Assembly: GCA_029248675.1 (NCBI GenBank)
Contig: JAQWIX010000022.1
Coordinates: 1 to 33,222, forward strand
DNA from: Pseudomonadales bacterium
GTDB lineage: Bacteria > Pseudomonadota > Gammaproteobacteria > Pseudomonadales > Azotimanducaceae
DNA: 33,222 nucleotides
Direction: 5' to 3'
Shown here in pieces: positions 22,600 to 26,171 of this stretch. The translations under genes and the position numbers were made by a program. Below the pieces are notes generated by a model. The model was not told the origin of the DNA and searched no databases. It saw only the letters and a program-made list of their open reading frames with translations. How positions within the stretch are numbered: the first letter of the stretch is position 1; each line of letters opens with the position of its first letter.

Positions 22600-23498
22600 A
22601 CCTCCGCGACCTACGCTATCTTGTGGCCGTTGCTGAGTATCGGCACTTTGGTAGAGCTGCGGAAGCCTGTTTTGTCAGTCAGCCGACGCTGTCTACTCAG
22701 TTGAAGAAGCTGGAGGAGACCCTTGGCGTCGTTTTGTTCGAGCGCAGCAATCGTCGGGTGATGTTGACTCCTGAAGGGGAACAAGTCGTCCAGCAAACCC
22801 AGCGAATTCTCGTTGAGCTTAATGCGCTCACCGCTTTATCTGAGCAGCTCAGAGACCCCATGGGTGGTGACCTGCGCATTGGTATTATCCCCACCATTGC
22901 CCCATACCTATTGCCTAAAGTCTTAGCTCCCTTGCGGAAGGCATTTCCCAACCTGAAGATTCAACTGACCGAAGGACAAACCGCCAACATTACGCGCATG
23001 CTCAAACATGGAGATCTGGACGCCACCTTGCTTGCCTTGCCCTTGGGCGAGGAAAATGTGGAAGAGGTGGCCTTGCTTGATGAGGATTTCGTCTTCGCGG
23101 TACCGGCAGACCACCCTAAGGCCCAACTGGCTGAGGTAGATCCCAGTGATCTTGAAGGCGAAGAGGTCCTGCTGTTGGAAGACGGTCACTGCTTCCGGGA
23201 TCAGGCCTTGGAGGTGTGTCAGGCCCATCGCGGTATCGAAAGCAAAAGTTACAGTGCGACGAGCTTGGAAACCCTACGCCAATTGGTAGCCGCCGGGGTG
23301 GGGGTAACGCTGATCCCCCAGCTCGCGGTGCCAGATGAGGTCAAGCCTTCAGACGGTTTGCGCTACATTCCCTTTGCCGCAAACGGGCAAGACAGACCGA
23401 TGCGCACCCTCGGTCTGTGCTGGCGAGCATCGTCCACTCGCGGCGAACTGCTGCAAGACGTGGCTACCTTGTTAAAAGGGTGTATGAACACCCTTTAG
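22596..23498 (+). CDS. oxyR: Hydrogen peroxide-sensing LysR-type regulator OxyR
   Basis: 300 residues, LysR family. The N-terminal winged helix-turn-helix is [40 protein letters not shown] (written here only as a landmark, residues 1-40). The redox cysteines are C199 in GHCFRD and C208 in LEVCQAH, at the same numbers as in E. coli OxyR, where they form the peroxide-induced disulfide. It starts at TTG, overlapping the cytochrome stop by one frame shift. It ends tail to tail with the DUF3501 gene: the two stop codons overlap, and a hairpin lies across the last oxyR codons. Location beside a rubrerythrin run suggests that run as a target. Confidence 0.95.
   Translation: [300 protein letters not shown]
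23475..23496. terminator. Bidirectional hairpin terminator at the oxyR / DUF3501 junction
   Basis: Arms AAAGGGTGT (23475-23483) and ACACCCTTT (23488-23496) are perfectly complementary with loop ATGA. On the minus strand the stem ends in TTTT and follows the DUF3501 stop directly, a good intrinsic terminator. On the plus strand it encodes the last residues of OxyR and ends TTTAGG, a weaker terminator. One element serves both convergent genes. Confidence 0.7.
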
Positions 23499-24076
23499 GC
23501 AAAGTCTTCGATTAGGGCCGCACGCTGATCTGCTGACACCTCGTAACTCCCCGGCAAGGAGCCGTGGTCAATGCCCATGAACAGGGACGTGCCAGCCTTT
23601 AGAGAGGCGATGTCGGAGTCGTTTAGCTCAAAGCGCATAAAGTGTACGGCGGCTGCTTTTTCATCCCGAGTACGCTCCATATCCTCATTGGTTATGGCAA
23701 ATATTTTTTCGCCCTCGTCACCTACCCGAACCCACACGGTTTGCTCGATACCACCCATGGTGGCCAGGGCCACCTTACGTTCCTCTACGTCTCCGTACTC
23801 GATCATAAAGGTCGCTTTCCAGTTACAGCCGTCGGGTATTAGCGGGTTATAGGAAGCCAGTTCTTCCTCGATTTCAGCGGCCTCGAAAATGCGCTCAACT
23901 CGCAGCATTTCTTGAACCTGGTACTTCATGGTCAACTGATCTTCGAAGTACAAAGTGGCGTGAGGGCCTAGGGCGACGTTGCGCCGCTTTTTGTGGGCGA
24001 TGACCTGTGCACGGAACTCCTGCCGGCGCCCGGCGTATTCCTCCAAAGACCAAAGGTCAGAGCGAGTAAGGGTCAT
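23495..24076 (-). CDS. DUF3501 family protein
   Basis: 193 residues, soluble, no signal peptide. The sequence opens MTLTRSDLWSLEEYAGRR and contains KKRRNVALGPHATLYFED, VQEMLRVERIFE and NWKATFMIEYGDVEER, as in DUF3501 proteins. The activity of the family is unknown. To my knowledge these genes are commonly found with rubrerythrin and CCG-type Fe-S protein genes, as here, where it lies 42 nt after the Fe-S protein. A role in assembling or supporting that electron-transfer pair is inference only. The stop overlaps the stop of oxyR on the other strand. Confidence 0.9.
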   Translation of the reverse strand: MTLTRSDLWSLEEYAGRRQEFRAQVIAHKKRRNVALGPHATLYFEDQLTMKYQVQEMLRVERIFEAAEIEEELASYNPLIPDGCNWKATFMIEYGDVEERKVALATMGGIEQTVWVRVGDEGEKIFAITNEDMERTRDEKAAAVHFMRFELNDSDIASLKAGTSLFMGIDHGSLPGSYEVSADQRAALIEDFA

Positions 24077-24118
24077 GTGTTTTCTCCAAAACGTTGGTTG
24101 CTGCTCGTTGCAGCGCTG

Positions 24119-25447
24119 TTAAATGTTATAAGCCTTTCGGACCATGCTGATTGGATGTTGAGCATCGCCTTCATCCATGCCGTCTGCGATCAGTCGCCCA
24201 GCCATGGGACAGTCAGATCCGAAAGTATCTGCATCACTGTCCTGCACGCGTTTAACCACTGGGCGGGCAATTTTCTTAGCCTTGTCATAGGTTTCAGCTT
24301 TTACTGCGTAGGTGCCGTCATGGCCCGAGCAGCGCTCAATAGCAGTTACCTCGGTATCAGGAATCAGCTGCAGGAACTCTCGGGTTTTCATACCGAAGTT
24401 CTGCACCCGCTGGTGGCAGGCCACATGATAGGCCACCTTGCCAAGGGGCTCAGGGAAGACGGTGCTGATCAGTGTGTCTTTATGGCGCAACATCAGATAC
24501 TCGAAGGGGTCGAAAAAGTGCGCCTTTACATTGGCGACGTCGGCATCTTCCGGGAACATCAGCGGCAACTCCTGCTTGTACATCAGTACGCAGGAAGGGA
24601 TCGGCGCGATGATGTCGTAACCGTCGGCAATGGCCTGCTGAAAAACGGGAATATTTGCGTCCTTCATTTTTTCAACTTTGTTCAGGTCACCCAGTTCCAG
24701 CTTCGGCATGCCGCAGCACTTGGCATCCTGCAATATTTTTACAGGAACATTGTTGTGGTTAAGCACTGCGATCAGGTCTTCCACCATTTGCGGCTCGTTG
24801 TGGTCGCCATAACAAGTGACGTAAATCGCGACCTTGCCTGTGGTTCGTTCGGTTGCCGTCACCGGGGCGTCGTCGCCCATGGTGCCCGGTAGGGTTTTTG
24901 TCAGCGCCTTGGGGCTGAAGTGGGGAAGCGGCGCATCTTGGTGTAGGCCGAAAAGTGCCTCGCCCGCCTTTCGTAAGGTTTTGGAACCGGCGGCGGCATT
25001 GGCCATTTGAGCGATTCCCGGGGTCGAAATGGCATCAAAGATAGGGTCCGTTGACGTGATGATTCGGTCGCGCCACTTGGTGTCGTTATTTTTGAATTTC
25101 TGCGCCTTCGCCCGCAGCATCAAGTGCGGAAAGTCCAGGGCCCATTCGTGTGGAGGTAAGTAGGGACATTTGGTCTCAGCGCATAGATCGCAGAGAAAAC
25201 ACTGATCTACCACCTTGCCATAATCGGCCTTGTCGACACCGTCCACTTCCATGGTTTCACTGTCGTCGATCAAATCGAACAAGGTCGGGAACGAGTCACA
25301 AAGGCTCACGCAGCGGCGGCAGCCATGACAAACATCAAAAACCCGCTCCATTTCCGCGTGGAGGGATGCTTCGTCGTAGAATTCTGGGTTTTTCCAGTCT
25401 AGGGCGTCGCGTTTCGGCGCCTGTAAATTACCCTCTTTAGCACTCAT
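24119..25447 (-). CDS. Fe-S oxidoreductase with two 4Fe-4S motifs and two CCG domains (GlpC/HdrB-like)
   Basis: 442 residues, no signal peptide. The N-terminal ferredoxin-like part has C40-x2-C43-x2-C46-x3-C50 and C83-x2-C86-x2-C89-x4-C94-P, enough for two 4Fe-4S clusters. Two cysteine-rich (CCG) domains follow. The first has C212, C244-C245-G and C286. The second has C344, C373-S-G and C413, with Ser in place of the second Cys of the pair. This architecture is shared with GlpC, HdrD and LutA-type proteins that pass electrons between quinones, flavoproteins and thiols. GAGG precedes the ATG. Placed between rubrerythrin and DUF3501, it is a plausible electron donor to the rubrerythrin. Confidence 0.92.
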   Translation of the reverse strand: MSAKEGNLQAPKRDALDWKNPEFYDEASLHAEMERVFDVCHGCRRCVSLCDSFPTLFDLIDDSETMEVDGVDKADYGKVVDQCFLCDLCAETKCPYLPPHEWALDFPHLMLRAKAQKFKNNDTKWRDRIITSTDPIFDAISTPGIAQMANAAAGSKTLRKAGEALFGLHQDAPLPHFSPKALTKTLPGTMGDDAPVTATERTTGKVAIYVTCYGDHNEPQMVEDLIAVLNHNNVPVKILQDAKCCGMPKLELGDLNKVEKMKDANIPVFQQAIADGYDIIAPIPSCVLMYKQELPLMFPEDADVANVKAHFFDPFEYLMLRHKDTLISTVFPEPLGKVAYHVACHQRVQNFGMKTREFLQLIPDTEVTAIERCSGHDGTYAVKAETYDKAKKIARPVVKRVQDSDADTFGSDCPMAGRLIADGMDEGDAQHPISMVRKAYNI

Positions 25448-25497
25448 AGAAGACCTCTATCACTTTGATTTACGTTGACTATCTTTGGGGGGCCAAC

Positions 25498-25963: not shown

Positions 25964-26062
25964 TGTGCATGAACTCCATCTTGGTTGAGGTTGCTCGATT
26001 AGGTAGGTCTGGCGCTGAACGACTAAAAAGCTGATCGAGCACAAAACTTACCGATGCAGGGC

Positions 26063-26128
26063 AGTATAAGTACTCGCTTCAATCTTTCTATTTGAATGTT
26101 TAGATCGTAGTCATAGGCGCAGCCTATG
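26063..26128 (-). promoter_or_regulatory. Candidate OxyR-regulated promoter of rubrerythrin
   Basis: On the minus strand TATACT (26068-26063) could be a -10 element; no good -35 stands 17 bp upstream, as expected for an activator-dependent promoter. CATAGGC-GCA-GCCTATG (26112-26128) is a perfect 7-bp inverted repeat. Its core ATAG-N7-CTAT matches the outer bases of the OxyR half-site motif ATAGnTnnnAnCTAT but changes the inner T/A to C/G. The centre would be near -64. The second OxyR motif 7 bp away is at best degenerate. Confidence 0.4.
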
Positions 26129-26152
26129 AGGTTTCACATTTTGATCACTTTT

Positions 26153-26171
26153 GTAAATGATAATAATTCCC
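26153..26171. promoter_or_regulatory. Fur-like box in the rubrerythrin / MATE intergenic region
   Basis: GTAAATGATAATAATTCCC matches 14 of 19 bases of the E. coli Fur consensus, including the central ATGATAAT. It overlaps a possible plus-strand promoter (TTGATC at 26141, ATAATT at 26163, 16-bp spacer) pointing to the MATE gene, and lies about 190 nt upstream of rubrerythrin. Apart from this box and the OxyR-like palindrome, the 335-bp gap 25964-26298 holds only promoter-like AT-rich sequence (TACAAT near 26252 is another possible -10 for MATE). Confidence 0.5.

Follow-up and report, generated by a model that had tools for sequence, protein, structure and literature searches.

The stretch of DNA analyzed here (33,222 nucleotides of contig JAQWIX010000022.1, from a bacterium of the Pseudomonadales, family Azotimanducaceae; hereafter the window) carries on its minus strand, at 23495-25963, the genes rbr, rfo, and DUF3501, in this order, encoding a rubrerythrin (RBR), an iron-sulfur (Fe-S) oxidoreductase (RFO), and a member of the DUF3501 family, respectively (Table 1). 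Their placement on one strand, tail to tail with an OxyR, as given in a preliminary description of this DNA, was confirmed by coordinates and strands, the end of the regulator gene overlapping that of DUF3501 by 4 bases. This three-gene peroxide-defense operon was already described in 2016 and is not a new system: the Cardenas study presented the trio, named RFO, and proposed that RFO compensates for the loss of rubredoxin (PMC5114695). The aerobic-type rubrerythrin system of that study, found in Gammaproteobacteria, consists of the same three genes in the same order and without a rubredoxin domain, and the gene content of the window is no different.

Table 1. Genes and predicted sites at the rbr-rfo-DUF3501 locus of the window
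Feature	Coordinates	Strand	Description
rbr	25547..25963	-	rubrerythrin of aerobic type, 138 aa; presumed di-iron ligands present; no rubredoxin domain
rfo	24119..25447	-	Fe-S oxidoreductase, 442 aa; two 4Fe-4S motifs, first CCG domain (CCG1) with four Cys, second (CCG2) altered
DUF3501 (PF12007)	23495..24076	-	193 aa; solved relative is 3fjv
OxyR-type LysR regulator	22596..23498	+	GHC-x8-C; tail to tail with DUF3501
OxyR-operator-like site	26091..26127	-	exact half-site ATAG-N7-CTAT at 26113-26127
Promoter-like pair TAGAAA-16-TATACT	26063..26090	-	directly 3' of the operator-like site; 9/12 matches
Fur-box-like site	26153..26171		14/19 consensus matches
Terminator-like hairpin and T run, rbr/rfo gap	25497..25523	-	weight lies in recurrence across loci

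Conserved co-occurrence of the three families, the absence of which had been named beforehand as refuting the proposal, was found. In a phylum sample of 249 genomes, DUF3501 was present in 19, RFO scored at least 506 bits in 19 (next best, 175 bits), and aerobic RBR scored at least 264 bits in 19 (next best, 169 bits), and these were the identical 19 genomes, the window's included. In every one of them the trio was clustered, with unchanged order and strand; a single genome had an encapsulin-type ferritin (EncFtn) gene interposed. Among relatives of the window's genome, which are close kin so that counts are not independent, DUF3501 occurred in 37 of 58 (the window's genome counted), and 35 of the 36 loci from relatives other than the window's genome, as well as 71 of 80 named loci, had the order RBR-RFO-DUF3501 on one strand, the available stretch of the remaining nine named loci starting at most 150 bases from rfo or DUF3501. 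Ten of the 21 relatives without DUF3501 were tested, and RFO was detected in none of these and RBR in one (G029, at a contig edge). No single-frame fusion of RFO and DUF3501 was flagged in a scan of loci L031-L146, a range that excludes the phylum-sample loci; such fusions, which would have pointed to a joint action of the two proteins, have been reported for Nitrosomonas (PMC5114695). In total, 125 triads were collected (35 from relatives, 71 named, 18 from the phylum sample, and the window), and the subsets analyzed below comprised 114 triads with an rbr start recognized by pattern, 109 distinct upstream regions, and 103 distinct rbr/rfo gaps longer than 30 nt.

The window RBR matched the Pfam Rubrerythrin profile (E = 3.2e-28) and the profile search revealed no rubredoxin domain, in agreement with the rubrerythrin of 138 residues without a rubredoxin tail that had been proposed; this length is counted from an ATG, the listed open reading frame starting at an upstream TTG and giving 165 aa. 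Against the NCBIfam rubrerythrin model it scored 128 bits, below the cut-off of 200, and it is thus not a classical rubrerythrin. We take E19, E52, H55, E89, E92, E123, and H126 to be the di-iron ligands, and all seven positions were kept in every row of a 126-row RBR alignment that has neither a gap nor an X there. With these presumed ligands and no rubredoxin domain, the protein is by its sequence of the aerobic type. Peroxidase activity, predicted for the window protein, is known for a relative of the same RBR type, ferriperoxin of Hydrogenobacter thermophilus, which is required for aerobic growth (PMC3317640). In the window's genome, a draft that is 92% complete, neither catalase nor KatG was found, while one rubredoxin and nine AhpC-TSA-type matches were present.

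The two 4Fe-4S motifs expected of the Fe-S protein were present in RFO as CxxCxxCxxxC and CxxCxxCxxxxC. Pfam scored only the first CCG domain (E = 5.7e-15), and a second was visible by alignment to Escherichia coli GlpC and in fold matches to the electron-transfer proteins LutA, EtfD, and HdrB. The earlier assignment of two CCG domains therefore stood for the fold and failed in part for the ligands: CCG1 has C212, C244, C245, and C286, while CCG2, which reads C344, C373-S374-G-H376, and C413-x-x-A416, is short of two cysteines. A search of PDB sequences with RFO as the query yielded no match. RFO resembles GlpC in its ferredoxin part and two CCG domains, with the same four cysteines in CCG1, but the CCG2 of GlpC has Cys, Cys, and Ile where RFO has Ser374, Ala416, and His376, and RFO fell below the cut-offs of both GlpC models (219 versus 278 bits and 151 versus 280 bits). 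As judged from profile matches and alignment, RFO is a co-localized CCG protein of the COG0247 type, akin to GlpC.

The altered CCG2 site recurred throughout a census of 115 RFO rows, in which five genomes are present twice, partial rows are included, and the phylum sample is left out. The eight ferredoxin cysteines and the four of CCG1 were Cys wherever ungapped, and C344, C373, and C413 of CCG2 were retained, gaps and X aside. Position 374 was Ser in 114 rows and Ala in one, position 416 was Ala in 110 and Gly in five, and His376 was present in all 115. A second alignment, which included 14 of the 18 phylum-sample RFOs, had C373, S374, H376, and C413 invariant in 27 of 27 rows.

A solved precedent for such a change is mycobacterial EtfD (PDB 9ojn), to which RFO showed a fold match with an E value of 5e-7 and which likewise has two 4Fe-4S and two CCG domains with swaps of CCG ligands. 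In EtfD, a Thr in place of the second Cys of the CC pair leads to a linear [3Fe-4S] cluster, and an added histidine, His583, completes a noncubane cluster across domains; the authors consider that the ligand swaps may have been an adaptation to aerobic conditions (PMC13083937). A word search of the main text of that paper retrieved no mention of GlpC or rubrerythrin. RFO has likewise lost the second Cys of the CC pair and gained a His, but in CCG2, whereas the Thr and His swaps of EtfD, a membrane protein with a b heme, lie in its first CCG domain; since the swaps sit in different domains, the analogy is an inferred one. On this basis we tentatively suggest, as a possibility that we consider less probable than its opposite, that RFO is an oxygen-hardened CCG relay, in which the loss of two CCG2 cysteines and the invariant His would give a non-standard center where heterodisulfide reductases have their reactive noncubane cluster, so that the protein could hand electrons to the di-iron peroxidase in air as a working replacement of rubredoxin. 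Such a center may be a linear [3Fe-4S] cluster, a Cys/His-bound cluster, or a His capping the CCG1 cluster across the interface in the manner of EtfD His583.

The neighboring regulator contained HTH_1 and LysR_substrate domains in the profile search, and its sequence has the two redox cysteines attributed to it beforehand (GHC-x8-C). Its score with the NCBIfam OxyR equivalog, the best of 53 models, was 312.4 bits, and because this lies below the cut-off of 329, we refer to it as OxyR-type. When OxyR-type genes with both cysteines were counted up to a distance of 2 kb, 23 of 30 relatives and 17 of 51 named loci had one, in varying orientation, and the 18 phylum-sample loci had none.

Upstream of rbr, the minus strand of the window reads ATAG-N7-CTAT-N7-ATCT-N7-CAAA (26127-26091), with an exact first half and 12 of 16 positions agreeing with the OxyR operator consensus, the motif rules and thresholds being our own. 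Among distinct rbr upstream regions, 33 of the 47 that are OxyR-linked held the exact half-site ATAG-N7-CTAT, versus 8 of 62 others, OxyR-linked meaning that an OxyR-like BLAST neighbor lies less than 2.6 kb away (in some cases one without the GHC-x8-C form) and the phylum-sample loci being counted among the 62. In control tiles of 350 bases from the same loci, it occurred in 2 of 1449 (OxyR-linked) and 0 of 1891 (others). The sequence of the seven-base spacers differs from locus to locus, an indication that the site is under selection rather than shared by kinship alone. These data supported the earlier suggestion that OxyR controls the set, and with an operator-like site of OxyR spacing upstream, rbr is a predicted member of the OxyR regulon, OxyR binding and induction by H2O2 likewise being predictions. 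The promoter-like pair beside the operator-like site is weak by itself, as about one such pair is expected by chance in the region. We do not regard a second ATAG-N7-CTAT, at 25446-25460 over the rfo start codon, as functional; the tile that holds it is one of the two positive controls.

Iron-responsive control, proposed with the words "perhaps Fur," also gained support, in that a Fur-box-like site is kept in the window's group; the site is a prediction drawn from this conservation. At least 14 of 19 consensus matches were found in 23 of 47 OxyR-linked and 3 of 62 other regions (shuffled sequences, 0 and 0.67, respectively). The shuffles used for Fur and operator sites keep base composition only, and real tiles were added for the half-site. 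At up to three mismatches, no Fur consensus match was found in the window, the site at 26153-26171 having five. The site is not necessarily tied to the divergent MATE gene, because in L035, L037, L040, L046, L054, and L070 at least 14 of 19 positions match without a MATE neighbor. Five of the 18 phylum-sample loci have a Fur-family gene ahead of rbr and in the same orientation, and each of these scores above the NCBIfam Irr cut-offs. Sensors of peroxide or iron, drawn from different families, are thus recurrent neighbors of the operon. By locus, an Irr/Fur-family gene adjoins rbr in L159-L163 and L166, the six tested passing the Irr cut-offs, and similar genes occur in L065, L092, L095, L104, and L125, that of L095 scoring below them. 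L092, L095, L104, and L125 also share a gene resembling an L095 open reading frame that, read by eye, we take to be cytochrome-c-peroxidase-like.

By a rule of our own, an intrinsic terminator was identified in 57 of the 103 rbr/rfo gaps, compared with 0.4 from dinucleotide shuffles and with 13 of 1246 random same-strand tiles. By group, it was present in 26 of 29 gaps from the window and relatives, 26 of 62 named, and 5 of 12 from the phylum sample, and the hairpin sequences differ between loci. For the window hairpin (25497-25523), which the hairpin scan lists on the plus strand only, 1.0 is expected by chance. The terminator suggested that RBR is probably made in excess over RFO and DUF3501, and such an excess would suit RFO as a catalytic donor. 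Differential expression within the trio had been guessed in the Cardenas study (PMC5114695), and the internal terminator is a concrete means for it.

DUF3501 was identified with an E value of 2.4e-66 (223.8 bits versus a Pfam cut-off of 25), and its structure model was confident (predicted local distance difference test score [pLDDT], 92.7). In Foldseek, only 3fjv (two chains), itself of unknown function, was matched at an E value of up to 0.001; the next matches, with TM-scores of about 0.1 to 0.3, were not used to guess a function from the fold. No cysteine is conserved, 64 of 135 rows having none at all in the last 190 residues, and this makes it unlikely that DUF3501 acts as a Cys-based redox carrier. 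Near-invariant instead are two histidines, H145 (129 of 135 rows) and H171 (131 of 135). Since Thermoproteales keep RBR and DUF3501 without RFO (PMC5114695), the partner of DUF3501 is probably RBR. The statement that its role appears undescribed held insofar as the role is still called unknown in the papers examined, and did not hold for its link with RBR and RFO, which had been described.

In 9 of 119 distinct triads, the operon was accompanied by an EncFtn gene, lying between rfo and DUF3501 in eight and just after the operon in one (L091, L095, L099, L107, L125, L127, L137, L144, and L149); the L127 copy passes the TIGR04535 cut-off. L092 seems to hold an EncFtn remnant. While EncFtn of the known kind is encapsulin-associated, here it stands in an RBR operon, and a Linocin_M18 shell gene was not found in the nine genomes concerned (one 100% complete, the rest without stated completeness), three control genomes giving matches. 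A word search of two encapsulin papers returned no DUF3501 and no such operon; one of them notes rubrerythrins near Flp-fusion encapsulins. The insertion ties some of the operons to iron handling.

Taken together, gene identity, linkage, conserved upstream sites, the terminator, and the ligand pattern are the parts supported by sequence, and from these we lean, with slightly more confidence than doubt, towards a peroxide-induced non-heme peroxidase operon, in which RFO feeds RBR and DUF3501 is an accessory of RBR. The retained di-iron ligands, the peroxidase activity of a related RBR (PMC3317640), and the failure to find catalase or KatG in the draft genome point the same way. In such an operon, the OxyR next door would sense H2O2 and activate rbr from the site at 26091-26127, Fur would add iron control, and the di-iron site of RBR would reduce H2O2 and perhaps organic peroxides. 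RFO would be a relay of the GlpC/LutA/EtfD kind, with two cubane clusters and two CCG sites, presumably passing electrons towards RBR in place of rubredoxin and receiving them probably from a flavoprotein, one of the two sources, with quinol, that had been suggested beforehand; that it stands in for rubredoxin fits the hypothesis published in 2016 (PMC5114695). Judging from the terminator, RFO and DUF3501 would probably be less abundant and serve an abundant RBR, on which DUF3501 would most likely act as a metallation, assembly, or docking factor.

Several observations weigh against this scheme. OxyR as a universal part of the operon had to be rejected, given its absence within 2 kb at all 18 phylum-sample loci, the exact half-site is missing from 14 of the 47 OxyR-linked loci, and 46 of the 103 gaps lack a terminator under our rule. 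One genome, G045, has a lone DUF3501-like gene (L066:5063-5629), with RBR and RFO not found in it; as the protein differs at 9 of 32 near-invariant positions, we did not take it for an ordinary member and treated it as a divergent exception. With its two near-invariant histidines, DUF3501 may bind metal. RFO may not be the electron donor, since ferriperoxin is reduced in vitro by FNR and NADPH without RFO (PMC3317640), and the window's genome, with a rubredoxin and nine AhpC-TSA-type matches, has alternative donors and scavengers. Direct reduction of RBR might then come from an FNR-type flavoprotein using NAD(P)H or from free rubredoxin, leaving RFO another job, such as the rescue of over-oxidized RBR or quinone-linked electron disposal. 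Besides ferriperoxin and the rubredoxin gene, the absence of RFO from Thermoproteales with RBR and DUF3501 and, in H. thermophilus, the position of rfo apart from its two partner genes (PMC5114695) speak for it, but RFO and RBR share their 19 genomes out of 249 and are clustered in every one, which suggests a direct joint task, and neither FNR nor rubredoxin genes were among the recurrent neighbors (in a neighbor list that is partly named). We consider direct reduction rather unlikely.

It is also conceivable that the operon mainly handles iron, with RBR and DUF3501 forming a ferroxidase or iron-release unit, RFO reducing stored Fe(III), and peroxide serving as an oxidant rather than a target. 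The Fur-box-like sites in 23 of 47 OxyR-linked loci, the Irr regulators preceding rbr in 5 of 18 phylum-sample loci, and the EncFtn genes in 9 of 119 operons would agree with such a task, which we nevertheless rate as improbable, because peroxidase activity has been measured for a related RBR that its host requires to grow in air (PMC3317640), OxyR-type sites are conserved, and 110 of the 119 operons have no EncFtn.

Compared with published systems, the OxyR-type site, the internal terminator, the CCG2 ligand pattern, and the EncFtn insertion were not met in the available parts of the Cardenas study, in which 185 of 4461 genomes had all three genes (PMC5114695). Nor did we meet the OxyR-type half-site, the rbr/rfo terminator, the CCG2 change of RFO, or EncFtn in the operon in searches of the open-license literature, a body of text that excludes most subscription journals. 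In Sideroxydans lithotrophicus, an operon has DUF3501, COG0247, RBR, and OxyR side by side as in the window (PMC7852563), but the part of that report consulted contains no binding site or function test. Ferriperoxin is a single-domain RBR of the same lineage as the window's, but works with FNR/NADPH, with rfo apart. The trio also occurs in several eukaryotes, with a predicted mitochondrial location (PMC7050145). Because the system has been published, the find itself is unremarkable; what the control sites and the ligand pattern add is of moderate interest. The trio occurs in many aerobes, and the electron source of this rubrerythrin and the role of DUF3501 have been at issue since 2016. Control and stoichiometry can be tested through the upstream site and the terminator, and the RFO signature names the exact residues to examine, with EtfD as the solved precedent.

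Beyond the operon, a small cytochrome c gene (22204-22599) overlaps the start of the OxyR-type gene by 4 bases, and 20 of 36 relatives have a similar gene at their loci. A gene for a CNP1-like protein lies near the operon in ten loci (L089, L110, L113, L118, L132, L137, L144, L146, L148, and L153). Elsewhere in the window, 2489-5551 and 10847-12985 encode two large proteins of unknown function, a DUF5916 protein with a SPOR match and a DUF3604 protein.

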